Source of the DNA: Haliotis asinina
Lineage: Eukaryota; Mollusca; Gastropoda; Lepetellida; Haliotidae
DNA: 64,000 nt
Reading direction: 5' to 3'
Assembly (NCBI RefSeq): GCF_037392515.1
Contig: NC_090288.1
Span: forward strand, 11,228,969-11,292,968
The notes below the pieces were generated by a model, which was given only the letters and a program-made list of their open reading frames with translations, did no database searches and was not told the origin of the DNA. Positions 544 through 57,100 of the stretch are shown in pieces. The position numbers and the translations under genes were made by a program. How positions within the stretch are numbered: position 1 is the stretch's first letter; every line of letters starts with the position of its first letter.

Positions 544-3500
544 GCACACATTGGGTGTGGGAAATATTGAACATGGTCGTAGCCGGAAAAGCAGAGTATG
601 CGAAGCACTGGCAGAATTCTGCATTCTACGAGTCGAGGACAGAGGACGACCTTGACACCCTTCCCTCTCCCAGGATCATATTTACCCATCTTACACCTGA
701 GTGAGTTGCCGACCTGTTGAACACATACTAGTTTGTCACGAGAGCTATTTAAATATTATTCTTAATGGGATAAATATATGAAACGTCCACTTACTGCTTT
801 AGGGATACGTTTTAAGTGAAACTGCCGAGATTATATATGTGATAAGGACTGCTTCTCTGTATACAAACCCAAATATAATCACCCGGAAAACTGATTGTCC
901 GGTTTAAAGGGGCTATACTGTACCAAAGCTACGCGTTAATGGAGTTCATACATATACTGAGCTCACTATCACTATTCACGCATTTATGAATACATGTTTT
1001 CTTATTAGTACCAATCAATCTATCAATCACTAACGCGAGTTAGAATGACCTTCGGTAACCCATGCTTGAGAGGTGGTAAACGGGATCTTCTGTCATGGTT
1101 GATGGATGTCATCCTATCCCAACTGCGGAGATCGATGCTCATTATGTTAACCACTGGACTGTCTTGTCCAGACTCATATATACACAAGCACAAAAACTCG
1201 TCCTACCACCTACTCACTCACTCGCTGCCCATGGCGTTTCTTGCGTTGACAGTCTACTACCACAAGACATATGGAACCGGAAGTGCCATGTTGTCAACGT
1301 TCAGAGAAATCCCAAAGATGCCGTGGTGTCCTTTTTTGTTCAACACACCAATCAGAACTGGGTGGACAAGTCACGTGACCCGGCCTTCGTGGGTTCCTGG
1401 GATAATTATGTTGACGCCCACATCAAGGGAAACGGTAATGTCAGTCACGTGATATTTACATGGGTATAACAACTACTTTCATTTCGGTTGCATGATGTCT
1501 CAGCATAAACGTCCATTGTGTTCATATTGTAGTAATGTAGTGCTTACTATCATACATATGTAGGATTTCTGCCTCAAATATAATTTGAAGGGGAAAAAAG
1601 GATCTTATCTATCTTTGTTTATAATATCTAAAGAGACAGTTGCGAGAGCACGTGGGGATATATTCGTTACTGACTTTCTTAATTTAAACTGAAAACGAAA
1701 AATCAAGTCAGTCATGTTATAATTAAACACTGATATTGTTTGCTGTCCCATATTTTGTTTCTCACTATATTTAGAACAGAAATTGTCAATTTGTGAATGC
1801 TGTGGACATGAGCAGAAATGAGTAAAACTATCAACAAAAGCAATTTTACCGAGCAGGCTCGCTGGCATCCTTGTATACTCTGCGAAAAAAGAAAGGCAGA
1901 CGTGGTTATTTGATGTATACGCTACGCTTGTTATAATTATCAACTGACCACAATAAATTGTTCAAATTTGTCACAAAACATTTAAACTGACATAGACTCA
2001 TACAATCGAATGCCTAAGTGAAAAATCATTTGTTCTCATTATCTCAGTATCCAGGGAAGGTGCCCGCCTTTCCCTGTCCAGATCTCATTGACATTGTCGT
2101 GCCATGGATCTATTCATATCACCACTTGTTACCTGGGGAATGTTCTCCCACTCTTCCTGTAGAGTTTGTGTCAATTGTTATAGGTTCTGTGAATGTTGCT
2201 GACGCAATCGCATAAACGTTCAACAGTTAGATGTTGAAGGTGTAGATCTGGACACCTTGAAGGCATTATGGTTCCACAAGAAGGCCGTTGTCAGTCTCTT
2301 TCCTTGTGAGGTTGGGCGTTCCCGACGCGACGTTTGCTTGTTGCATAATGGAAAGCACGAGTGGACGAAGGCGTTGAGCCGGTAAATTGTCCTCGCCGGT
2401 GTGGGAGATGGTAGCCCACATTATTCCAGTCTCGCATCCACACCTGTCCCCTATATGCAGTTTCAAACATAAGGTCCAGAGTAAACACGACATCTTCCGT
2501 CAATATGTAGAAGTGAAAAACATGACTCGTCGCAGACCCGGGTACGATTTCCAAAAGGGGCACAATGTGTGATGCCCATTTATGCTGTCCCTCGTCGTGA
2601 TTTTATTGGAATACTGATAAAACGGCGTAAAACTAGACTCAATCACTCACGATGATTGCATGCGTTAACATCACGTAGTACCAATTAGTGTCATCACAAG
2701 TAGTGTATATCAATGATATAAAATGGGAGATTTTTTTCGATGAAAAGATCACTTATTAGATATCGATGTTAATATCACCTACTCGTATCCACGCCGATGT
2801 CATACAACAGCCATCACTTACGATAAGTGTGCATCGATGATAATACCGCATGGTAATGCCAATATGGTGTATATCAATAATGACCTCCCTAGTGTATATC
2901 AACACAACTATACAATATTCAATAAATGAATTTTGTGGATTGAATATTCATGCTAACATCACCAGTACATCGGTCCTGACAATTTCAGTGCCGTTTGATT
3001 CTGTGCTGGAGCACAGTCTCCGCTGGAACAGATTTCCAAAGGAACACCCAGATGTTCCATTTCTGCAAGTACAGTTTGAAGATCTTAAAGAAGTGAGTAC
3101 TTTGCCACATGAATGTAGCTGAATGTAATAGCCCAGTCATGTACACAACGACAACACTTCATATGAATAGCTCTGTACATGGAGGTACCCTGCATTGGTT
3201 GGTTTCTTGGTTAACGCCTCACTCAGCAATATTCCAGCTATATGGCGGCGATCTGTAAACATACGGGACAGTCCTGTGATCAACAGCATGAGCATCGATC
3301 TATGCAATTATGATAAGATGACATGGGTCAACCAAGTCAGCAAGTCTGACCACCCGATCCCGTTAGTCGCCTCCTAAGAAAAGCATGGGTTGCTGAAGAT
3401 CAATTCGAACCTGGATCTTCACGGATCTGCAGTGTGATGTTCTGTCACGAACAAAGGAATCTCGTTAAAACTTTCTCTAGCACTAATATCAAGATACAGA

Positions 3501-8249: not shown

Positions 8250-8400
8250 AACATGAGTGAGTGACCTGGGTTTTACTCCGCTTTTAGCAATATTCCAGCA
8301 ATATCACGGCGGGACATCAGAAATGGGTTTCACGCAATGTACTTATGTAGGAATCGAACCCGAGGCTTTGGTGTGACGGGCGAACGCTTTAACCACTATT
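8250..8400 (-). mobile_element. family A SINE
   Basis: Reads from the reversed tail (GAGTGAGTGACCTGGGTTTT) through AATATTCCAGCAATATCACGG to the reversed B box GGAATCGAACCCG and CGCTTTAACCACT. Confidence 0.75.
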
Positions 8401-9562: not shown

Positions 9563-9735
9563 AGTGAATGAGTGGGTATGGTTTTACGCCGCTTTCAACA
9601 ATATTCCTGCAATATCACAGCTAAGGACGCCAGAAACGGGATGCTTCACGCATTGTTCTCATGTGGGCAATCGAAACACGGGTCTTCCGCGTGACGACTA
9701 AAAGTTTTAACCAATAAGCTACTCCACTGCCCCTT
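9563..9735 (-). mobile_element. family A SINE, near full length
   Basis: The reversed tail is weak (CAGTGAATGAGTGGGTATGG). The AATATTCCTGCAATATCACA body, reversed B-box region (CAATCGAAACACG) and reversed A-box region (TTTTAACCAATAAGCTACTC) are all present. Confidence 0.75.
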
Positions 9736-16400: not shown

Positions 16401-17609
16401 CATGATGTTTTGGGTTCTTTTTAAATGAGTAGCTCGGTATCCCACATGGGTACACTGGATTTAGCCCATGTTTGTGCACCCTCGCGTAAAACCATACTCA
16501 CGCGATGCTCATGTTGTTGATCACTGGATTGTCTGGTCCAGACTCGATTCTTTACAGACCGCCTCCATATAGCTGGAATATTGCTGAGTGTGACGTAAAA
16601 CTAAACTCATTCTCTTACTCTTTGCGAAGTTTAAGTCCGATAAATAGTCTGCTGTTGGTTTGTTGTTTAACGCCGCACACAGCAATATTCCAGCTATATG
16701 CCTGCGGTCAGTGAATAATGGAGGATGGACTTAATAATCCAGTTATCAACATCAGGTTCATCGTTCTACGCAACTAGGATACGATTACCAGACAATCCCG
16801 TGATCAAAAGCACGAGCAACAATCTGCGCAATTGGGAACCGATGACATGTGTCAACCAAGTCGGCGAGTCTGACCACCCGATCCCGTTAGTCGCCTTTTA
16901 CGACAAGCATGGGTACCCGAAGACAAATTCTCACCCGTATCTTTAGGAGGCAGTTTGAGCTTGACTAGATATAAGTGTGGCTGTGGGTATTCTCTTTAAT
17001 TTCTTAACTGGCAGATTTGTCATTCACATTCAGTCTATGTTTATGTAATAATGTTGAATGTTTTGAGGGTGCATCACCACTTGCACTTCCTTGTGACCAT
17101 AGCTTTTTGTAGAGTAATCGTGTATGACGTGATATCTGCATGTGCACGATTTTTGTTTTCAAACAAAAAAAAAACGGCTAGAGACATACACTGTGAAACA
17201 ACTGTGTGATACAAAATGATTGTCAAAATCAATTGTTCATCTGTGATTTATCGACTTTCTTGAAAACCGTCCAAATCAAGAATGATTCCTCATGCATATG
17301 TGCGAGGCTACTGCGTTGTGCACGTGCATCACATACGTTTTGTTTAACTAACCCGGATCTTCATGGGGTCTTATTTCTTATGAGCTTGGATCTACGCAAT
17401 TATTTTTGCTTCAGGTCAGTGCCGAGTTTGAAGCGCTGAGGGGCCAGGAAGTATGGAACGAGATCTGCAACCAAGCCAAGAAGATCCATGCTGATGTCAT
17501 CGTTATCGGAACCCGAGGGATGGGGAAGATCAAGCGCACCATTCTCGGCAGCGTGAGTGAAGGCGTCCTTCATCACACCCACGTCCCCGTCCTCATCTAC
17601 AAGGAGTGA
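10413..17609 (+). CDS. universal stress protein (USP/UspA family), four exons, complete
   Basis: Exons: 10413-10482, 14616-14702, 15377-15468, 17415-17609. Together 444 nt, so 147 residues plus stop, the usual size for a single-domain USP; every junction is AG/GT and in phase. The protein starts [19 protein letters not shown], the first beta strand with its conserved Asp. [15 protein letters not shown] is the second strand. The last exon carries [12 protein letters not shown] and then KIKRTILGS, which fits the G-2x-G-9x-G-S nucleotide-binding motif exactly, and ends VPVLIYKE. This start was chosen because the fold begins directly after it. USPs are soluble ATP-binding alpha/beta proteins, expanded in molluscs and linked to stress; the role of this one is unknown. 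Introns (4.1, 0.7 and 1.9 kb) are full of SINEs. In the 5' flank ACATTCTTGACAG occurs twice, 21 bp apart (about 10362 and 10383). Confidence 0.95.
11168..11320 (-). mobile_element. family A SINE, in USP intron 1
   Basis: The reversed tail is shortened (TAGTGAGTTTAGTTTTAAGC). The B box (GGGAATCGAACCC reversed) and the AACGCTTTAACCACCAGACT head are well kept. Confidence 0.75.
11930..12036 (+). mobile_element. family A SINE, head and partial body
   Basis: The A-box region GAGTAGTCTAGTTGTTTAGC and the B box GGGGTTCGATTCTCC are followed by part of the body, up to the CTGCCGTGATTTT segment. It abuts an inverted copy just downstream. Confidence 0.65.
12040..12145 (-). mobile_element. family A SINE, inverted partner of the 11930 copy
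   Basis: Lacks a tail and starts inside the body (GGAGACACCAGAGCTTCACA). It ends in the reversed head (CACCTTAACCACTGACTTAC). Both copies of the pair lack the CTCACTCA end and meet at their bodies. Confidence 0.6.
12388..12407. repeat. poly(G) run
   Basis: Twenty consecutive G residues inside USP intron 1; length uncertain. Confidence 0.9.
12780..12925 (+). mobile_element. family A SINE with internal deletion in the head
   Basis: GGGGTAGCC is joined directly to CATTGTCACGCCGAAGAG, so the A-box region is lost. B box AGGTTCGATTCC, body and the AAAACTAAGCTCACTCAA end remain. Confidence 0.7.
14025..14190 (+). mobile_element. family A SINE, best-kept copy
   Basis: Shows the family layout: tRNA-like head with A box (TAGTGGTTAAAGC, 14043-14055) and B box (GGTTCGATTC, 14081-14090), a ~60-bp body, then GCTAAAAGCGTCGTAAAACT and a CTCACTCACTCA tail. 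Family A is probably transcribed by RNA polymerase III from these boxes; that is inferred from SINE biology. Confidence 0.85.
14348..14588 (+). mobile_element. family B repeat with internal disruption
   Basis: The segment GGGTGGTCAGGTTTGCTGAC is present; after an unrelated ~60 bp a second GGTCAGGCTCG and the 3' half follow, ending GGCGTTAAACAACAAATAC. It ends about 25 bp before USP exon 2 (14616). Confidence 0.65.
15515..16039 (+). mobile_element. long tRNA-derived SINE (third family), near full length
   Basis: Begins with a Ser/Leu-like tRNA head (GTGGGCGAGCTGGCTAAGG, then B box GGATCGAGCCC) and continues ~450 bp to GCGCCTTGAGCATGCACTAG and a (CTAC)n tail. A possible 7-bp duplication ATATTTT flanks it (15508-15514 and 16040-16046). 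It starts ~50 bp after the donor of USP exon 3. Confidence 0.75.
16125..16290 (-). mobile_element. family A SINE, degenerate
   Basis: Reversed tail GCGAGTGAGTGAGTGAAT, then a disturbed body with an extra stretch, then GACACCAGAAATTGGCTTCC and the reversed B-box region GGGGAATCGAACACG. Confidence 0.5.
16380..16500 (+). mobile_element. family A SINE, degenerate fragment
   Basis: CCCACATGGGTACACTGGAT and the end GCGTAAAACCATACTCAC are recognisable; the tRNA head is not. Confidence 0.4.
16503..16622 (+). mobile_element. family B repeat, 3' half
   Basis: Starts at GATGCTCATGTTGTTGATC, directly after a family A end, and runs to GACGTAAAACTAAACTC. The junction may be an end-to-end insertion or a recombinant. 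Confidence 0.7.
16655..16950 (-). mobile_element. family B repeat with a ~70-bp internal duplication
   Basis: Near full length on the minus strand. The segment around the GACAATCC and 'ATCAACATC' words is partly doubled (about 16720-16815), which makes it longer than other copies. Confidence 0.65.
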
Positions 17610-19585: not shown

Positions 19586-21699
19586 CACAGGGGCTTGTAA
19601 CGCTGAAAACTGCCATCATGATATATATTGTCCCGAATGGGGTATTACTACTATATACAAGAAAAGGGGTGTAACGAGGTCAACACACCAAGTTCGTTTC
19701 AGGGCAAATTCAACAATGATCACTGCATACATCCCTAATAAACTGCATACACTTTGAAAGCAAATAGATTTACCTACAAAATAAGACACATAAATCGAAG
19801 CAGTACTTAGGGTGCTAGCGTATTCAGAGCCAAAATCCCTGCTCAGAATTTGTACTGCTAACTTACTGAATATGATGTTTATTGCATCGTGTACGCGCAC
19901 ACCGCGAACCAAAACACGCTGAATCGGTGGCACCTGTCTCCGCGCTAATCACCAGTCGTTCCGAGACTCATAAACCTTACAGTCATGATCACAGATTACG
20001 CATCGCGATCGGACTTAAGGTTACACAACACCAAATGTTTTCCCATAGACTTCTATAGTAACCTTATATTTTTTAAAAAAATAGCCAGGCTATCAACAGC
20101 CATTCCATGTACACATGGGCACAGTCTGGCCTCTAAGCCTCTAAGCACAGGAAGCGGAACACATCAACCCCCAGCTCCGCACCGAATGTCACCTACTTCA
20201 AAATATATGTACACACATAAGCATAACCCATGGTGATAAAAATGACAGCACTAAATACTTAAAATTGTGGTCAGTTTTAATAACAGGGTGGATGTGCTTT
20301 TAAAACACATACACATCTTACACTATTTCATCCAATCACAGCTGTCACAGGCCTCTGTCCGTACGGTCCTCGCTCGGGCAGCATGTGATATTGATATAGT
20401 GTAGTGGAACCTGTAGAAAAAATTATCTGCATCTGCACTAGGCCAATCTGTGATTTATGTACTGTATATACATGTAACTTCTCAGAAAAAAAATAAAACT
20501 GCATGAAACCTCAATATTTTTTTCTGTCCAACATATCTGTTATGGCAAAAGAATAAAGAGATTTGCTGCACTGATAGAGGTGTAAGAGTTACATCATGTC
20601 TACTTCATCAAAGCTTTACAAAAATGCATTTCTGCTTTCATAGAGAAAGTTTTCAAATCATGTATATACCATGGGAGTTTACGCCTATTTCACAAAAGAA
20701 GGGGGTCATGGGTTGATTCCATACATGACTGGGGCTGCCTAGATCATATCAACCCAGAATAAATTTTGAACGACCAAAATCATGGAATACAGGCCAGAAA
20801 TTGGAGAGATTTCACATTAAGCAGCTTTAGCATCTTGACATATGTAAGGCTGGTTGATGAAGTTTGTCAGAAAGTATTAAGTGAGGAGATGCATAATGCC
20901 TAGCTGTCTGGAACACTGATCAGAGTACCCTGCCGCCTGTTCGTCGATCAAGGCAAATGACCCCTTAAACAGATGAAATCACTTTTAGACCACAGTATGA
21001 TAGGAACTTATGCTTGAATCTATTGATTCATCAAGCTAAGACTTTAAAAAACTTCCAGGAAATCAAAACTATTTACTGTGTATTGTTTTCAGGTTGTTAG
21101 ACTTGACAGTTTCATGTATAAGCCAGTTTAGAGGGTACAAAGTGAAAATATCCTCATAATTTTAAAACTTTATTGGTTAACCTGCCCAAAACTGAATATT
21201 TCTATTCACAGTTAACAGTATTTGACAGTATCAGCTAAAAACAGTGTTTCTCTGCAATAATTTATGGGTTACTGGGTGACAAGAAGACATATTGTATATG
21301 GGTAAACAAGGGAGATAATTTAAAGACATCACACACTCTCAAGTCAATAAAATTTGTGGTCAGACCCACTCTACAAGGGTCAGTTGGGAAAAGACAGAGG
21401 CATAAAATGCAGTTCATTTGTTTGTATAATTAAACAGAATTAAATTACGTAATTATCACAGCGTTAATACATTTACATTACAATGTCATGCATTAACATA
21501 CTTACTCAAAGTATGAATTATGGCTTTGCAGGCTGATAATGCTTGCTTACTCACACCCTTTTCTGTGGCAAACTAATTTGCCCTGAAACGAACTTGGTGT
21601 GTTGACCTCGTTACATCCCTTTCCTTTCATATAGTAGTAATACCCCGTTCGGGACAATATATACCTTGATGGCAGTTTTCAGCGTTACAAGCGCCTGTG
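19586..21699. mobile_element. 2.1-kb element with 125-bp terminal inverted repeats
   Basis: 19586-19710 (starting CACAGGGGCTTGTAACGCTG) is repeated inverted at 21575-21699 with roughly ten differences. No clear target duplication and no transposase were seen in the 1.9-kb interior, which has only short unassigned frames. The superfamily is unknown; long TIRs without coding capacity point to a non-autonomous DNA transposon or foldback element. Confidence 0.8.
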
Positions 21700-22825
21700 A
21701 GTTAATATTTAGCCTCACATCGGCTGCATTTCAGCCATATTATGGCGAGTTAAAAGCCTGTCGTCGATGGACATGTTATCATAAAATGATATCATAAAAC
21801 AAAATAGTACAATAAAAGCATACGCGCTGTGAATTGCAATCAACTGACGGTAGATAACCACACTAGGGTCCAACGAGTACTTTGTCACCTTCATGGACCG
21901 TACCCGAACTTGCATCATTCCTTGTAATAGCGACTGTTAGCAGATAAGGAATGCATTAAAAGAACAAATATTCTACAATAAAATTCCGGAGAATTAAATG
22001 AATACTTTGAATGAAATATTGCTTGCGTAGACTCTAAGGGGCTAATTATTGCTTTGTAATATAGGCAATGACAGTTTTGTTGAAAATGAATTTCATTTTC
22101 TGTGTAAAGTGTATCATGGTATGCGCGTGAAGTCATTTCCAGGGATGGCAATTTTCCTCGGATCCGCGGATTTCCGCCGATTTCATTCCAAACTGATCAA
22201 TTTTTTTAATCGTCTGAACCCCCATTTCATGGCACAATATTAACTTTTCAGCTTTTTACAGATGGATTTGATTGTCACTACATGTACATCTACTTTTTAA
22301 TTAAACTTGTTCAGTTTGCATTGCACATGGGCCTAATATAAGGCCTTTCTACGAAACAGTCCCGATCGACTGATGATGTTATAACACCTCATCAACCTTC
22401 TACATACATTCAGTTGCGTATTCATTCGGTCAACATCACCCGTTGACGGTTGTTCTTTTTATTTACAAAACATTAAAAGTGATTGCATATGCATGCACTT
22501 GCAACTCTCCTGATTGTGAAACTTCACCTTGTCGATAATATTTACTTTCTCGCCGCTAAAGGGTTTCTTCCTAACTCATTTTACTATAGTTACTGCTGAC
22601 ATTTTACAACCTCCTCTCTCGTTTGCGCGACTATCCTGAGGGTGGGCGGGTAACTGTCGGCAAGGGAGATTACTCTATTTAGGAAACTGGGGACCAAGTT
22701 GAGTTCAAACCATATCTGACCTATGGGCGGTCTTTGAAGATGACGCTATGCAAATATTGCTGTGAAACCAATGTAAATATATTTAGACAACGATGCACAT
22801 TTCTATCAGTATGACAGCGCATCTG
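21700..22825. other. no gene or named repeat recognised
   Basis: Moderately AT-rich DNA. Short open frames lack recognisable domains. Confidence 0.4.
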
Positions 22826-32978: not shown

Positions 32979-34520
32979 AACTCATGGGCAAAAGAAACTT
33001 ATCACTTTAAAATTTCCATTTACGCTTCTAAACAAAACTGAACTAGGTAAAACATACTGAGAAAACATTCGCTAAAACACATTTTTAAGCTGAGTAGCAA
33101 GCAAAAAACCCGAGATATTGTGATTTTCGTGAAAGCACGAAAAACAGTGAAAAAGGTTTTTTGAGTGTAACCAAAAGTTCTCGTGCACATTGGTTGCATA
33201 AATACAGCTGTTCGACAGTGCAATCATGCATTATCAAAAAGCATATCAAAGTTATGCCACGACTGTCATCGGAGCAACGCAATAGGGCCATCGGTATGGC
33301 CCATATGGGGGCGTCACAACGTCAGATTGCCAGAACATTCCACTGCAGCCAGGCAACAATCAGCAACCTCCTGAGACGTTTTCAGCAGACAGGTCAGACC
33401 ACTGACCGTCCAAGATCAGGTAGACCAAGGGTTACGACGCCCGCCGAAGACCGCCATATCCGTACGATACACCTACGGAACAGATTCGTCACAGCGACGT
33501 CAACGGCGACCACAGCCTTGGGACACCGCATCAGCAGACGAACCGTACTAAGACGTCTCCGTGCTGCTGGTATCAGAGCTCGCCGTCCATTCCGTGGAAT
33601 GCCCTTGACCCGCCAACATTGTCAACGTCGGCTGCAGTGGGCACGAACAGTACGTCGGTGGCAGCGACGTGACTGGCAGAGAGTGCTCTTCACTGATGAA
33701 AGTCGTTTCAACTTGTACAGAAATGATGGCCGAGCCCGTGTATACCGACGTAGAGGTGAGCGATTGGCGAGGAACTGCATTCAAGAGGTGCACCCATTTG
33801 GAGGAGGTGGTATCATGGTGTGGGGTGGGATTTGTGCTGATCAGAGGACACAGCTTGTCATCCTGCATGGAAATCTGACAGCCCAAAGGTATAGGGACGA
33901 AGTCTTGAGGCCAGTTGTTTTGCCCTTTGTGCGTCAACAGCCAAGAGGTGTTCTTTTGCAACAGGACAATGCACGTCCGCATACTGCCAGAATCGTTGAA
34001 GATTACCTCAACAACGCCAACATCAACGTTTTGCCCTGGCCAGCACGTTCCCCAGACATGAATCCCATTGAACACCTCTGGGATCATCTCGACAGACAGC
34101 TAAGACAACGACAGCAACCACCAGCAAATCGCCAACAATTGGAGCAAGTTCTCTTGGAACTGTGGCAGAGGATTCCTCCTGACGTCATCAGGCGTTTGAC
34201 GACATCAATGCGGAGACGTGTACTAGCGTGCATTGATTCAAGGGGTGGACACACTAGGTACTGAGTGCTCAGACACTTCCAAGATTCAGTTTTCCACACA
34301 CTCTGTGAATGCAATCCTCTGTGTAAACTTTCACGTCCACCCCATGTGTCATCTACCTCACTTCCTGCATGCATGAACATTGACAGGGCATCAACAAATA
34401 CAGTTTTTGCTGTGTAAATGGCTTATCTTTCTTATATAAACATTCTTTCTGACATTTTTTTGTTTTTGTCGTTTTTAACACAAATAATGTCGGGTGATAA
34501 GTTTCTTTTGCCCATGAGTT
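32979..34520 (+). mobile_element. Tc1-type DNA transposon, intact copy 1
   Basis: 1542 bp, bounded by inverted repeats of ~27 bp (AACTCATGGGCAAAAGAAAC at the left, its inverse at the right) and by TA target duplications (32977-32978, 34521-34522). It encodes one complete transposase. Every feature is repeated in copy 2, exactly 16,328 bp further on. Confidence 0.95.
33254..34264 (+). CDS. Tc1-family DD34E transposase, copy 1
   Basis: A 336-residue protein starting MPRLSSEQRNRAIGMAHM; an in-frame ATG at 33161 would add 31 residues, but the family normally starts at the helix-turn-helix. N-terminal paired-type DNA-binding helices (SQRQIARTFHCSQATISNLL) are followed by a basic linker with GRPR. 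The catalytic triad is visible: FTDES, QQDNARPH, and NPIEHLW, with 34 residues between the second Asp and the Glu. The glycine-rich box GGGGIMVWGG precedes the second Asp. The frame has no stop or shift. It acts in the nucleus, cutting and joining at the TIRs. Confidence 0.95.
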   Translation: MPRLSSEQRNRAIGMAHMGASQRQIARTFHCSQATISNLLRRFQQTGQTTDRPRSGRPRVTTPAEDRHIRTIHLRNRFVTATSTATTALGHRISRRTVLRRLRAAGIRARRPFRGMPLTRQHCQRRLQWARTVRRWQRRDWQRVLFTDESRFNLYRNDGRARVYRRRGERLARNCIQEVHPFGGGGIMVWGGICADQRTQLVILHGNLTAQRYRDEVLRPVVLPFVRQQPRGVLLQQDNARPHTARIVEDYLNNANINVLPWPARSPDMNPIEHLWDHLDRQLRQRQQPPANRQQLEQVLLELWQRIPPDVIRRLTTSMRRRVLACIDSRGGHTRY

Positions 34521-34761
34521 TACAACGGTACATTCAAAAGTATATAATGGTAAAATAAGTATCCATGGAAACTGATGACAAAAAGATTGATTTTCAGAAA
34601 TTGGCTTTTGAGAAAAAGAAACTTTTCAACTTAGTTGTGAACGTTTCCAATGTGGGAGACTGCTTTATGTGGAGAGGGAGAGAATTCCACATAGTAGAAC
34701 AAGCAAATTAGCAAATACCCCTTGCCAAAGGAGGAAAGGAGAACATTGTGAACGGAGAGGA

Positions 34762-35405
34762 GATTGGTCTTGAGATCTGAGATAGTGGTCTTGAGATCTG
34801 TGATAGGTGTCTTGAGATCTGTGATAGGGGTCTTGAGATCTCAGATAATGGTCTTGAGATCTGAGATAATGGTCTTGAGATCTGTGATAATGGTCTTGAG
34901 ATCTGAGATAATGGTCTTGAGATCTGAGATAATGGTCTTGGGATCTGAGATAATGGTCTTGGGATCTGAGATAATGGTCTTGAGATCTGTGATAATGGTC
35001 TTGAGATCTGTGATAGGTGTCTTGAGATCTGTGATAGGGGTCTTGAGATCTGAAATAATGGTCTTGAGATCTGAGATAATGGTCTTGAGATCTGTGATAG
35101 GGGTCTTGAGATCTAAGATAATGGTCTTGAGATCTGAGATAATGGTCTTGAGATCTGAGATAATGGTCTTGAGATCTGTGATAGGGGTCTTGAGATCTAA
35201 GATAATGGTCTTGAGATCTGAGATAATGGTCTTGAGGTCTGTGATAATGGTCTTGAGATCTGTGATAGGTGTCTTGAGATCTGTGATAGGGGTCTTGAGA
35301 TCTGAGATAATGGTCTTGAGATCTGAGATAATGGTCTTGAGATCTGTGATAGGGGTCTTGAGATCTGTGATAGGGGTCTTGAGAACTCAGATAGTGGCCT
35401 CGAGA
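34762..35405. repeat. 21-bp minisatellite with AGATCT core, about 30 units
   Basis: Unit GGTCTTGAGATCTGAGATAAT with alternating variants (GTGATAGGGG, GTGATAGGTG). Because 21 is a multiple of 3, long frames stay open on both strands (heptad VLRSEIM on +, SQDHYLR on -). Neither looks like a real protein. Confidence 0.92.
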
Positions 35406-35523
35406 TCTGAGGTGGGAGAAGAGCGCACGGTGGGACATTTAGAGAGATAAGAAGGAGTTTGATTCTCTAAACGTTTATACACGTGTGAAGTCTAACCGCA
35501 ACTTGACTGGGAGCCTGTATAAT

Positions 35524-36429: not shown

Positions 36430-36615
36430 TGGAGATCCGGGTTAGAATTGACCTTCAGTAACTCATACTTGTCGCAAGAGCAGACTAACCGGATCATGCG
36501 TGTCATCGTATCAGAAATTTTGTAGATCAATGGATTGTCTGGCCCAGATTCGATCATTTAGAGACAGCAACCATATGGTTCGGTCATTGCTGATTGCGAC
36601 GATAAACAACAAACA
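36430..36615 (+). mobile_element. family B repeat, diverged, AACAAAC tail
   Basis: Runs from GATCCGGGTTAGAATTGACC to GCGACGATAAACAACAAAC. A ~40-bp deletion lies in the middle (CTAACCGGATCATGCGTGTC). Confidence 0.7.
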
Positions 36616-47207: not shown

Positions 47208-47220
47208 TTATTTTACTCGA

Positions 47221-47492
47221 AACCCGTGAAGGTCCCGGGGTAGAATAGGCCTGCAGCAACCCATGCTTGCCATAAAAGGCGACTCAGCTTGTCGTAAGAG
47301 GCGACTAACGGGATCGGGTGGTCAGGCTCGCTGACTTGGTTGACGCATGTCATCGGTTCCCAATTGCGCAGATCGATGCTCATGTTGTTGATCACTGGAT
47401 TGTCTGGTCCAGACTCGATTATTTACAGACCGCCGCCATATAGCTGTAATATTGCTGAGTGCGGCGTAAAACTCAACTCACTCACTCACTCA
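47221..47492 (+). mobile_element. family B repeat, complete, with 13-bp target duplication
   Basis: 272 bp from AACCCGTGAAGGTCCCGGGG to ACTCACTCACTCACTCA, with perfect 13-bp direct repeats TTATTTTACTCGA at 47208-47220 and 47493-47505. This is the clearest full-length copy, and its flanks show it moves by target-primed reverse transcription like a SINE. Its last ~40 bp (GGAATATTGC-like word, then GCGGCGTAAAACT) match family A. Confidence 0.88.
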
Positions 47493-47505
47493 TTATTTTA
47501 CTCGA

Positions 47506-49306: not shown

Positions 49307-50848
49307 AACTCATGGGCAAAAGAAACTTATCACTTTAAAATTTCCATTTACGCTTCTAAACAAAACTGAACTAGGTAAAACATACTGAGAAAACATTCGC
49401 TAAAACACATTTTTAAGCTGAGTAGCAAGCAAAAAACCCGAGATATTGTGATTTTCGTGAAAGCACGAAAAACAGTGAAAAAGGTTTTTTGAGTGTAACC
49501 AAAAGTTCTCGTGCACATTGGTTGCATAAATACAGCTGTTCGACAGTGCAATCATGCATTATCAAAAAGCATATCAAAGTTATGCCACGACTGTCATCGG
49601 AGCAACGCAATAGGGCCATCGGTATGGCCCATATGGGGGCGTCACAACGTCAGATTGCCAGAACATTCCACTGCAGCCAGGCAACAATCAGCAACCTCCT
49701 GAGACGTTTTCAGCAGACAGGTCAGACCACTGACCGTCCAAGATCAGGTAGACCAAGGGTTACGACGCCCGCCGAAGACCGCCATATCCGTACGATACAC
49801 CTACGGAACAGATTCGTCACAGCGACGTCAACGGCGACCACAGCCTTGGGACACCGCATCAGCAGACGAACCGTACTAAGACGTCTCCGTGCTGCTGGTA
49901 TCAGAGCTCGCCGTCCATTCCGTGGAATGCCCTTGACCCGCCAACATTGTCAACGTCGGCTGCAGTGGGCACGAACAGTACGTCGGTGGCAGCGACGTGA
50001 CTGGCAGAGAGTGCTCTTCACTGATGAAAGTCGTTTCAACTTGTACAGAAATGATGGCCGAGCCCGTGTATACCGACGTAGAGGTGAGCGATTGGCGAGG
50101 AACTGCATTCAAGAGGTGCACCCATTTGGAGGAGGTGGTATCATGGTGTGGGGTGGGATTTGTGCTGATCAGAGGACACAGCTTGTCATCCTGCATGGAA
50201 ATCTGACAGCCCAAAGGTATAGGGACGAAGTCTTGAGGCCAGTTGTTTTGCCCTTTGTGCGTCAACAGCCAAGAGGTGTTCTTTTGCAACAGGACAATGC
50301 ACGTCCGCATACTGCCAGAATCGTTGAAGATTACCTCAACAACGCCAACATCAACGTTTTGCCCTGGCCAGCACGTTCCCCAGACATGAATCCCATTGAA
50401 CACCTCTGGGATCATCTCGACAGACAGCTAAGACAACGACAGCAACCACCAGCAAATCGCCAACAATTGGAGCAAGTTCTCTTGGAACTGTGGCAGAGGA
50501 TTCCTCCTGACGTCATCAGGCGTTTGACGACATCAATGCGGAGACGTGTACTAGCGTGCATTGATTCAAGGGGTGGACACACTAGGTACTGAGTGCTCAG
50601 ACACTTCCAAGATTCAGTTTTCCACACACTCTGTGAATGCAATCCTCTGTGTAAACTTTCACGTCCACCCCATGTGTCATCTACCTCACTTCCTGCATGC
50701 ATGAACATTGACAGGGCATCAACAAATACAGTTTTTGCTGTGTAAATGGCTTATCTTTCTTATATAAACATTCTTTCTGACATTTTTTTGTTTTTGTCGT
50801 TTTTAACACAAATAATGTCGGGTGATAAGTTTCTTTTGCCCATGAGTT
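49307..50848 (+). mobile_element. Tc1-type DNA transposon, intact copy 2
   Basis: Same length (1542 bp), ends and content as the copy at 32979. TA duplications lie at 49305-49306 and 50849-50850 and the flanks are unrelated, so this is a separate insertion and not part of a larger duplication. I saw no difference between the copies on reading through them. Confidence 0.95.
49582..50592 (+). CDS. Tc1-family DD34E transposase, copy 2
   Basis: The same 336-residue protein as copy 1, with an in-frame upstream ATG at 49489 that would give 367 residues. The HTH region, the GRPR linker, the glycine-rich box and all three catalytic acidic residues are intact. Two identical full-length frames in one 64-kb window suggest a source family that is, or was very recently, active. 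Confidence 0.95.
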   Translation: MPRLSSEQRNRAIGMAHMGASQRQIARTFHCSQATISNLLRRFQQTGQTTDRPRSGRPRVTTPAEDRHIRTIHLRNRFVTATSTATTALGHRISRRTVLRRLRAAGIRARRPFRGMPLTRQHCQRRLQWARTVRRWQRRDWQRVLFTDESRFNLYRNDGRARVYRRRGERLARNCIQEVHPFGGGGIMVWGGICADQRTQLVILHGNLTAQRYRDEVLRPVVLPFVRQQPRGVLLQQDNARPHTARIVEDYLNNANINVLPWPARSPDMNPIEHLWDHLDRQLRQRQQPPANRQQLEQVLLELWQRIPPDVIRRLTTSMRRRVLACIDSRGGHTRY

Positions 50849-50850
50849 TA

Positions 50851-51089
50851 TTTTATTCATAAGTGGTTATTGGCAAATGTCAGTGAGATTGACAAGACAT
50901 ATTTCAATACATCTCTTATCGATGTGTCCCAGCATAGTCTTTATTTCACTGGAGTTCGGTCAGGGCTTTCACAAATAACTTCATCGATATATCTTAGTTA
51001 GTATTTATAAAATGCCTAAATTCAAAAGAGTTCCAAGGTGTAGTATTCTAGGTGTATATGATGCTGGAAGTAAAGCTCTGCGTTTAGGA
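50851..51089. other. no gene recognised
   Basis: Short AT-rich spacer between the Tc1 copy and the next SINE-like repeat. Confidence 0.35.
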
Positions 51090-51335
51090 ACCCTGAAGAT
51101 CTGGGGTAGAATAGGCCTTCAGCACCCCATGCTTGCCATGAAAGGCGACTATGCTAGTCGTAACAGGCGACTAACGGGGTGGGGTGGTCAGACTCGCTGA
51201 CTTGGTTGACACATGTCATTAGTTCCCCATTGCAAAGATCCATGCTCATGTTGTTGATCACTGGATTGTCTGGTCCAGACTCGATTATTTACAGACCGCC
51301 GCCATATAGATGGAATATTACTGAACTCACTCACT
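51090..51335 (+). mobile_element. family B repeat, near full length
   Basis: Starts AACCCTGAAGATCTGGGGTA. The 3' end is shortened: GGAATATTACTGAACTCAC skips the GCGGCGTAAAACT part. It belongs to the CTCACTCA-tailed group. Confidence 0.8.
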
Positions 51336-55541: not shown

Positions 55542-55800
55542 AGTGAGTGAGTTTAGGTTTACGCCGCACTCAGCAATATTCCATCTATATGGCGGCGGTC
55601 TGTAAATAATCGAGTCTGGACCAGACAATCCAGTGATCAACAGCATGGGGATGGATCTGCGCAATTGGGAATTGATGACATGTGTCAACCAAGTCAACGA
55701 GCCTGACCATCCGATCCCGTTAGTCACCTTTTACGACAAGCATAGTCACCTTTTATGGCAAGCATGGGTTGCTGAGGGCCTATTCTACCCTTCACGGGTC
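55542..55800 (-). mobile_element. family B repeat, near full length, with small duplication
   Basis: Reversed tail TAGTGAGTGAGTTTAGG to the head TATTCTACCCTTCACGGGTC. TAGTCACCTTTTACGACAAG and TAGTCACCTTTTATGGCAAG form a short tandem duplication near the head (55722-55765). AGAAAATTAG occurs on both sides (about 55534 and 55801), a likely ~10-bp target duplication. Confidence 0.82.
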
Positions 55801-55934: not shown

Positions 55935-56859
55935 AATCACATCACATTGTTTTATTGCTTTTTGAGATCACATCAAATCCTTCTATGGCCTGATTCCCGG
56001 TAAATTGCTACATTAGTCTCAACATTGAGTTGACAGAGGCATTATTCCAGCCATACACTGACAGTTTATACAGCATCAGATTCAAAAGCAATCAATTCGT
56101 TATTTACATTACATAGCCACAATATATGATACAGGTCAACTCCCTCAGCTAACAATGAGGAAACAGGTCTTTCACATTTGTCGCTCCATAATACGAGACT
56201 TGCCTTTACAAAACTCCGCAAAGTAAAGCAGAATATGATTGACGATGCGCACTTCACTGCAACAGACAAATTTGGGAAGTCTATCCCCATTCAGCAGATA
56301 GTCATGAGTAAACCAACTCTGGCTAATACGACATCGTCGAAAAATCACTTCTTTACGTCTTTACAATAAAAGTAGGTATAACCAATTTATTGCCTTCAAT
56401 GCATGAAGTTTATTTCTTCCTACTTGGGTTTCACTGTACCACATCAGCAGTAGAGGTAATTTCTTGATCAGACAATCCATTCTGGTTTCCGCGATTCCGC
56501 GGTTGTCGAAAAAATCGCGGAATTTACTGTTCCATGCAGAAAAAAACGTCTGGTCAGCGGAAAACGCATTTTCTTGCAGACTCCGTGCAGAATTTACCAC
56601 TTTTCTGCAGCGGAATTGTTTTTTAAACGTAGTGAAAACTGATTGACAGCCGAAATGAAAAGTAGAGTTAATATCAAAAGTAGGATCGGTTGCACATAAA
56701 ACGAACTGAGATATTTACTGTGACAACATTTCCAAAGCAATCAATTTCTTTCAGATATCGTTTAAATGCAAAATTGTTGTTTGCATGAAGCTGTGGTTGT
56801 GAAGTTGTGGGTGAGTGTAACCGCAGAGTGTTTTGCAGAATATTGCAAAATAGGGTGCA
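55935..56859. other. no gene recognised
   Basis: Some short frames on both strands (56066-56290, 56178-56369, 56361-56600) have no domain I can name. CCGCGATTCCGCGGTTGTCG near 56488 is a GC-rich local palindrome. Confidence 0.35.
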
Positions 56860-57035
56860 AAATTTGCTTCGCGGAATTCTTAAAAATTTGCCGAGGAATC
56901 CAGAAGGGACTGATAAGAGCTGCTTTAGCTGTAGCATCGGCCCTTGTGTTACCTGCTTTTTCGACGTGACCTGGCAACCAGCAGAAGGCGATGCTACTCT
57001 GGCCAGTAGAAAGATCGTTGTAAAGTTCTAACCCG
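56860..57035 (-). pseudogene. LINE ORF2 RNase H domain remnant
   Basis: The minus strand reads SSIAFCWLPGHVEKAGNTRA then DATAKAAL, the WxPGHxxxxGNxxAD...AK signature of RNase H in I/Nimbus-type LINEs. The preceding LYNDLSTGQ fits the linker. The open frame runs on toward 56762, but the sequence after AKAAL is unlike the family. Confidence 0.7.
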
Positions 57036-57054
57036 TCCAGGATGATAACGCATT

Positions 57055-57100
57055 GTGCCCTTGCGATTGACAAAAATACCGGCGCCTTTGAGCAGGTGGT

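Follow-up and report, generated by a model that had tools for sequence, protein, structure and literature searches.

With a probability of roughly 0.78, family B of the Haliotis asinina genome is a short non-coding retroposon, SINE-like and of the stringent type, that is copied by a LINE of the I superfamily through a 3′ end made of a hairpin and ACTC repeats; family A uses the same end. The 3′ end is common to A and B, a LINE bearing it is present in the genome, the hairpin covaries, copies are flanked by target duplications, and two 5′-truncated insertions with duplications were recognised by eye. The window is the whole stretch of DNA that was analysed, 64,000 nucleotides of contig NC_090288.1 (positions 11,228,969 to 11,292,968).

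Family B in the window and in the genome

The best family B copy of the window is 272 bases long (47221-47492) and lies between perfect 13-bp duplications, TTATTTTACTCGA, at 47208-47220 (+) on the left and 47493-47505 (+) on the right, as the initial annotation had described. Its body (47221-47427, +) is without a recognisable tRNA, 5S or other Rfam head. Alignment of 17 heads reveals a 22-bp tandem duplication in the head (47265-47308, +, with units at 47265-47286 and 47287-47308). Folding and covariation define the 3′ hairpin, the part common to family A and the LINE, at 47431-47466 (+): the outer stem CGCCGC/GCGGCG is formed by 47431-47436 pairing with 47461-47466 (+), and the interior holds an inner 4-bp stem and a 9-nt loop (within 47431-47466, +). 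The terminal ACTC repeats occupy 47476-47492 (+). In place of the tail word first proposed, GGAATATTGC, the window copy itself has GTAATATTGC, one substitution away.

The first estimate of about 18 copies holds well, with 18 window matches at E≤1e-8 and 19 found by nhmmer with a tail-free body. A second ACTC-ended copy (55542-55799, −) is flanked by an exact 12-bp repeat that runs into the tail, and the hairpin of a third (51088-51335, +), also ACTC-ended, is partly deleted. Copies of an old type include one called AAC-ended and lacking the 22-bp duplication (3211-3426, −), one with the end GTTAAACAACAAACC and a body repeated in part (16664-16943, −), and one with the end GATAAACAACAAACAAAC (36430-36607, +). 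Family A is represented by a copy with a tRNA-type head, the common 3′ hairpin and an ACTC end (8255-8399, −) and by another with the common 3′ hairpin (9566-9733, −). A degenerate LINE-type 3′ end (TATGGCTGAAATGCAGCCGATGTGAGGC...TTAACTCAC) lies at 21697-21747 (−).

The genome searched comprises 1.14 Gb in 159 contigs. The best 40 of 984 first-look candidates for B are 97-100% identical to the window copy, with one further piece that is a 38-base part, and at this level of identity B is evidently a recently active family. Twenty ten-kb pieces at round coordinates contain 29 matches to the B body and 18 to the A body, which, if the sample is fair, would correspond to roughly 166,000 B and 103,000 A fragments in the genome. 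Copies can be closely spaced: three B copies fall inside 1.7 kb at locus L003 (378-2068).

Two other repetitive features of the window were noticed. Two 388-aa frames on one strand, separated by 16 kb and identical in translation (33098-34261 and 49426-50589), read by eye as a Tc1/mariner-type transposase, and the open frames on both strands at 34668-35447 come from a short tandem repeat (RSQDHYLRSQDPYH-like).

A 3′ end common to families A and B

The bodies of A and B are unrelated, and their 3′ ends align far beyond chance. In local alignment with the ACTC repeats left out, the two tails reach a score of 32, and the highest score among 5,000 dinucleotide shuffles is 16; the common end proposed in the initial annotation is thereby borne out. 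When 83 hits of a tail profile in the sample were assigned by their upstream sequence, 32 belonged to B, 28 to A and four to the LINE, with 19 assigned to none. A difference between the A and B tails genome-wide would have spoken against common mobilisation; no such difference was found for ACTC-ended copies.

A LINE with the same tail

A LINE of the same genome carrying their tail would, as first suggested, support common mobilisation of A and B, and a full-length copy of such a LINE, closing with this hairpin and with ACTC repeats, was found. The route to it was a reverse transcriptase match at C9:12998847-12999602, with CGTCACGATATGGCTGAGATATTGCCGATGTGACGTAAAATATTAACTCACTCACTC ∼2 kb downstream of its end. 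Five 3-kb stretches downstream of reverse transcriptase matches were read, among 150 matches listed; the tail is present in one of the five and the other four, which may stop before the 3′ end of their LINE, show none. The full-length copy starts directly after TCGGATGTAACG and finishes in ACTC repeats, where the 12-bp duplication TCGGATGTAACG recurs and overlaps the last two letters of the repeats. Its frames, read in pieces of one copy, match endonuclease (PF03372/PF14529), reverse transcriptase (RVT_1, PF00078) and RNase H (PF00075) domains, and its ORF2 is split over two overlapping frames. The combination of an APE endonuclease, a reverse transcriptase and RNase H in ORF2 marks the I superfamily, and the LINE is assigned there because its ORF2 carries all three. 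Nimb and Ingi are I-superfamily clades that occur across molluscs, according to PMC10294476.

The best 40 of 3,211 first-look candidates for the last ∼255 bases of the LINE are 98-100% identical, with three more partial pieces at 91-99%; by this identity the tail-bearing LINE is both abundant and young. At least three of these 3′-end places (C1:38568132, C15:42544604 and C9:13001350) begin ∼2.5 kb past the starts of reverse transcriptase matches. Further traces of LINE sequence were seen in passing. Four LINE-type hairpin ends 73 bases apart form a short tandem array of the LINE 3′ end at C2:77241934-77242187. A cluster of reverse transcriptase matches lies within 400 kb at C6:42280000-42680000, with frames of up to 1,253 aa and scores that are mostly equal; beside one of these matches, locus L039 has a lysine/alanine-rich frame that looks histone H1-like by eye. 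In the window, a frame at 56765-57100 (−) contains an RNase H-like stretch by eye (CWLPGHVEKAGNTRADATAKAAL), perhaps a LINE remnant.

Compared with the whole LINE, the B tail matches at 31 of 41 positions, its best hit is the LINE 3′ end, and none of 300 shuffles is as good; compared with the LINE tail, without the ACTC repeats, none of 5,000 is. For the A tail, one of 5,000 shuffles is as good against the LINE tail and two of 300 against the whole LINE, so that the A-LINE likeness taken on its own is weak. Possession of a 3′ end in common with a LINE of the same genome, as in a stringent-type pair, is therefore clear for B and weak for A alone. Outside the tail, no significant match of B to the full-length LINE was found.

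The 5′ end of the LINE (L043:1570-1668) is matched weakly by three Rfam families of HDV-type ribozymes, all below their gathering scores, with a best E of 0.026. Two of the matches begin at the first base of the LINE or two bases before it, and the third lies inside, which suggests a possible self-cleaving 5′ end in an I-superfamily LINE.

The 3′ hairpin

Stringent-type ends carry a stem-loop, as described in PMC3747384. The same fold is predicted for B, A, the LINE and AAC-type B: an outer 6-bp stem, an inner 4-bp stem and a 9-nt loop. The B tail folds clearly better than its shuffles (z −2.2), and the A tail does not clearly do so (z −1.2, with 19 of 200 shuffles as good).

Covariation was assessed in 26 hand-chosen tails, 23 of them from the 83 sample hits and three from loci L041, L036 and L032; six rows are LINE-type (one, L022, of doubtful LINE identity), 11 are ACTC-ended B and nine are A. 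Pairing is found in 90.6% of cells, against 87.0% in shuffles. Changes on both sides occur in six of the ten pairs (one of 500 shuffles as high), and the cells changed on both sides number 17, against 5.5 in shuffles (none of 500 as high); as for further pair types, 31 of 500 shuffles have at least as many. Every measure drops when the partner is slid by one to three columns. The LINE copy L041 has U-A at outer pair 3, where most A and B rows have C-G, and A-U at outer pair 5, where most B rows have G-C. At inner pair 2 the LINE rows carry G-C, and every B row except one carries A-U. Inner pair 2 is unpaired in ten of the 26 sequences, including all nine A rows. The tails thus have a 3′ hairpin with compensatory changes, of which RNAalifold retains the outer stem only, and related sequences can beat shuffles in such comparisons without structure. 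On the evidence of these alignments, the hairpin is apparently under constraint. Together with the discovery of the predicted tail-bearing LINE, its maintenance by compensatory changes supports the earlier proposal that a common LINE mobilises A and B.

Patterns for the hairpin core, in which some stem letters were left free, match 3,702 places genome-wide in the LINE form, 5,003 in the B form and 2,156 in the A form; the reversed patterns match none. These figures bear on the idea that the ACTC-rich ends are alike by chance or low complexity. The ACTC repeats are indeed simple sequence, and the A-LINE score was reached by one of 5,000 shuffles and by two of 300 for the whole LINE. However, the scores omit the repeats and no shuffle reached those of A-B and B-LINE, the hairpin changes are compensatory, and the reversed-pattern controls gave zero. 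Chance likeness was accordingly rejected, since the shuffle, covariation and reversed-pattern evidence already contradicts it, and it retains almost no probability.

Relationship between the SINE and LINE tails

The LINE tail departs from both SINE tails at pairs 3 and 5 of the outer stem, within the loop and at the junction before the repeats, which is TAAAATATTAAC in the LINE versus TAAAACYAAAC in the SINEs. With the ACTC repeats left out, the A and B tails score 32 with each other and 19 and 15 with the LINE. A pattern joining the LINE loop to the SINE junction gave no matches, and the SINE-type loop word occurs together with a LINE-type end at only 17 places. Because the tails differ and no LINE with the SINE junction was found, the SINEs may, on their sequences, follow another LINE.

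A different, unseen LINE could then be the true partner, the I-superfamily LINE having merely a distant common tail ancestor. The pattern search found no LINE with the A/B junction, only five downstream stretches were read among the 150 reverse transcriptase matches listed, and the pattern designed to exclude A and B listed 100 of 277 matches. Yet the LINE that was found is abundant and young, its hairpin is shaped like that of the SINEs and its terminal repeat is likewise ACTC, and among the 100 of 277 matches listed no repeated upstream sequence was seen by eye besides A/B variants and one C1 sequence. An unseen partner is thus unlikely. The exclusion pattern, which barred the A/B upstream bases, was itself a search for a closer LINE: the matches (277, with 100 listed and eight taken with flanks) were by eye variants of A or B, copies truncated close to the hairpin, or one sequence in three C1 places, and were rejected as such. 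Those three places fall within 190 kb of one contig (among the 100 of 277 matches listed). Neither a closer LINE nor a partner LINE with AAC ends was found by the patterns tried.

The closeness of the SINE tails could also reflect transfer from SINE to SINE, by template switching or recombination of SINE RNAs, with only one of the two families having taken its end from a LINE. The mutual score of 32 fits such a transfer, as do the junction TAAAACYAAACTCACTC, present in young B and in A and absent from the LINE, and the occurrence of B and A side by side in some stretches, for example L021:5919 and L044 (by eye). However, AAC-ended B copies already carry the hairpin in the version belonging to B (CATATAGCTGGAATATTGCTG); no more than the last ∼15 bases would then have come from A, and such a transfer would still require one LINE that recognises both families. 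It is a reasonable possibility that is given less weight than direct sharing with the LINE.

Target duplications and mode of movement

Target-primed reverse transcription is recognised by duplications of variable length, by 5′ truncation and by a 3′ end that stays constant. All 15 near-full-length B copies are bounded by exact repeats of 8-15 bp; this set has no null of its own, and nine of its copies come from loci L002-L008, chosen because they matched the window copy best. In an unpicked sample (the window and the 20 ten-kb pieces at round coordinates), exact repeats of at least 8 bp flank seven of 12 ACTC-ended B copies and six of 19 A copies, with mismatched-flank rates of 0.6% and 0.3%, respectively. 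An absence of duplications, which would have told against the proposed common mobilisation, was therefore not encountered in ACTC-ended copies. None of the eight B copies listed as AAC-ended, several of which are not truly so, has a target duplication of at least 8 bp, and for this reason retroposition of AAC-ended B draws no support from duplications. Both truncated insertions, read by eye, have 10-bp duplications: L032 is hardly more than a tail, and L031 is a shortened A copy. Family B is thus short and dispersed, with target duplications of variable length, as in a SINE.

Promoters and heads

Scored against the pol III box consensus, family A has the boxes ascribed to it at the outset, with seven of eight fixed letters in the A box and nine of nine in the B box, and none of 300 shuffles is as good for either of two copies. 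The boxes, TAGCCTAGTGGT and GGTTCGATTCC, are 31 bases apart, which is the usual spacing. Family A therefore has the tRNA-type head with A and B boxes of a SINE; ARAGORN found no tRNA in the window.

The promoter of family B had been called not obvious, and a box scan agrees, with no pair above shuffles: for two young copies 17-18% of shuffles do equally well, and for three old copies 33-48%. Neither a young nor an old B copy has an Rfam match at E≤5. Box-like words inside B were rejected as no better than shuffles, among them GGTTCGAATTG in an old copy (window 3426, minus strand), which has seven of nine B-box letters but no accompanying A box. A tRNA, 5S or 7SL head with an internal pol III promoter is thus missing from B, and since neither a box pair above shuffles nor an Rfam match was found, B is termed SINE-like and placed outside the strict SINE class. 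The window copy is free of any TTTT run, so pol III could still transcribe it. In a majority-style B sequence, the first bases are predicted to pair with ACGGG around several hairpins, a weak signal (z −1.6).

The missing boxes would be accounted for if B were a LINE derivative, composed of the 5′ and 3′ ends of a LINE with the middle deleted. B has no pol III box pair and no Rfam match, and Bov-A2 and RTESINE1 are known elements of this kind in Table 1 of PMC3747384. Against such an origin, the full-length LINE, 5′ UTR included, has no significant match to young or old B except the tail of the young copy, in a comparison that covered the 5′ end of one LINE and an old B query that stopped before the tail. 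Descent of B from a LINE is accordingly improbable.

Two terminal repeats in family B

A B-body search of the sample gave 48 hits, of which 43 reach the end of the body; 20 were called ACTC-ended, 16 AAC-ended and seven unclear, and the corresponding calls for 34 A copies are 24, one and nine. These automatic calls contain errors: L009:3503, called ACTC, reads as AAC-type by eye, the ACTC of L021:5919 is an A-type end adjoining a B copy, and the sole AAC call for A (window 12136) has no tail by eye. Several AAC-ended B copies retain the hairpin of B, for example GACCGCAGGCATATAGCTGGAATATTGCTGTGTGCGGCGTTAAACAACAAACC at window 16664-16709 and slightly beyond.

The 22-bp tandem duplication distinguishes the two kinds. 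It is present in nine of 11 ACTC-called heads versus none of five AAC-called heads (Fisher p 0.005), among 17 alignable heads that include one unclear-ended copy also without it; of the two ACTC-called heads that lack it, one is the doubtful L021:5919. Median identity to the young reference copy is 89.7% for ACTC-ended copies (n=19, reference left out) and 82.0% for AAC-ended copies (n=16), a borderline difference (Mann-Whitney p 0.057) biased by the reference being an ACTC copy. Identity to the window copy exceeds 92% in six ACTC-called copies, the window copy included, and in none of the 16 AAC-called ones. AAC-ended B without the 22-bp head duplication therefore appears, from these comparisons, to be older than ACTC-ended B. 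A change of end from AAC to ACTC is likely, short of proof because the overall identity gap is borderline and was measured against an ACTC copy.

A pattern of the LINE loop with an AAC end gave no matches; a looser pattern gave one, which was rejected as an AAC-ended LINE because it looks like an old B copy with an A copy next to it. Since 16 of the 43 B copies were called AAC-ended, the partnership with the LINE was probably inconstant over time, and B may have changed its terminal repeat and perhaps its LINE partner too. On the simplest reading, B exchanged one terminal repeat for another and in this way either transferred to the ACTC LINE or followed it. A more specific proposal is offered tentatively, at a little below even odds: B, with a head that is neither tRNA nor 5S, would have switched LINE partner through its last ∼15 bases only, from an ancestral state with the same hairpin and AAC-type repeats to the present ACTC repeats like those of A and the LINE. 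The hairpin would then be a general handle for the reverse transcriptase, with the terminal repeat deciding which LINE does the copying.

Proposed route of mobilisation

B, A and the LINE all end in a hairpin and ACTC repeats, and for this reason one copying machine is probably behind the spread of all three. In the favoured scheme, B RNA would end in the hairpin followed by ACTC repeats, and this end would be bound by the reverse transcriptase of the abundant I-superfamily LINE, whose own RNA would carry the repeats after a hairpin of matching shape. The LINE enzyme would copy B RNA into a nicked target, giving rise to the 8-15 bp duplications, and the unrelated, tRNA-derived family A would employ the same end. 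The evidence supports this LINE as the helper without singling it out; that it, and no close relative as yet unseen, supplies the protein is what we infer. Binding of the end by the reverse transcriptase, the role of the repeat and the way in which B is transcribed are likewise parts of the scheme that we infer.

Comparison with known systems

The genome gives a LINE with both ends set by a target duplication, together with two short retroposons that end alike at the 3′ side. With AAC as well as ACTC ends in a single family, it could be tested directly whether a LINE reverse transcriptase reads the hairpin or the terminal repeat. B also invites the question of how transcription proceeds in a short retroposon that has no recognisable pol III promoter. 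For bivalve SINEs, LINE donors are identified for only three of the eight families described in PMC10294476. Gastropod and bivalve SINEs (Matetovici et al. 2016) and MetaSINEs (Nishihara et al. 2016) are cited in PMC11203168 and PMC10294476; the molluscan families of these two studies possibly include A or B. Searches by title or sequence words found no published account of this SINE/LINE pair; the most relevant molluscan SINE papers lay outside the search, and absence from print is not claimed.

Several systems described in PMC3747384 are close in kind. The eel elements UnaSINE1 and UnaSINE2 have a 3′ end in common with the LINE UnaL2 and a short terminal repeat, but UnaL2 belongs to the L2 clade and has TGTAA repeats, whereas the Haliotis asinina LINE belongs to the I superfamily and has ACTC repeats. 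Short retroposons with different heads on one LINE tail are seen in Ped-1 (5S head) and Ped-2 (tRNA head) with BovB_Pca and in SlmI, Hpa I and OS-SINE1 with RSg-1; small-RNA heads are named for both sets there, whereas the head of B is not recognisable. Bov-A2, RTESINE1 and MAR4, with promoters given as the '5′-end of RTE' or 'of BovB', resemble B in having a LINE tail and no small-RNA promoter; unlike them, B has a head without a match to the one LINE 5′ end compared. The Gecko SINE of Aedes aegypti is listed with a tail from an I-named LINE, I-74_AAe, and differs in its tRNA head and insect host; the likeness is one of listing. Tail sharing between SINE and LINE, several SINEs per LINE and an I-named partner LINE are already known, since all three features are listed in Table 1 of PMC3747384. 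B stands apart from these in having a head that fails the pol III test and, on one hairpin, two kinds of terminal repeat.
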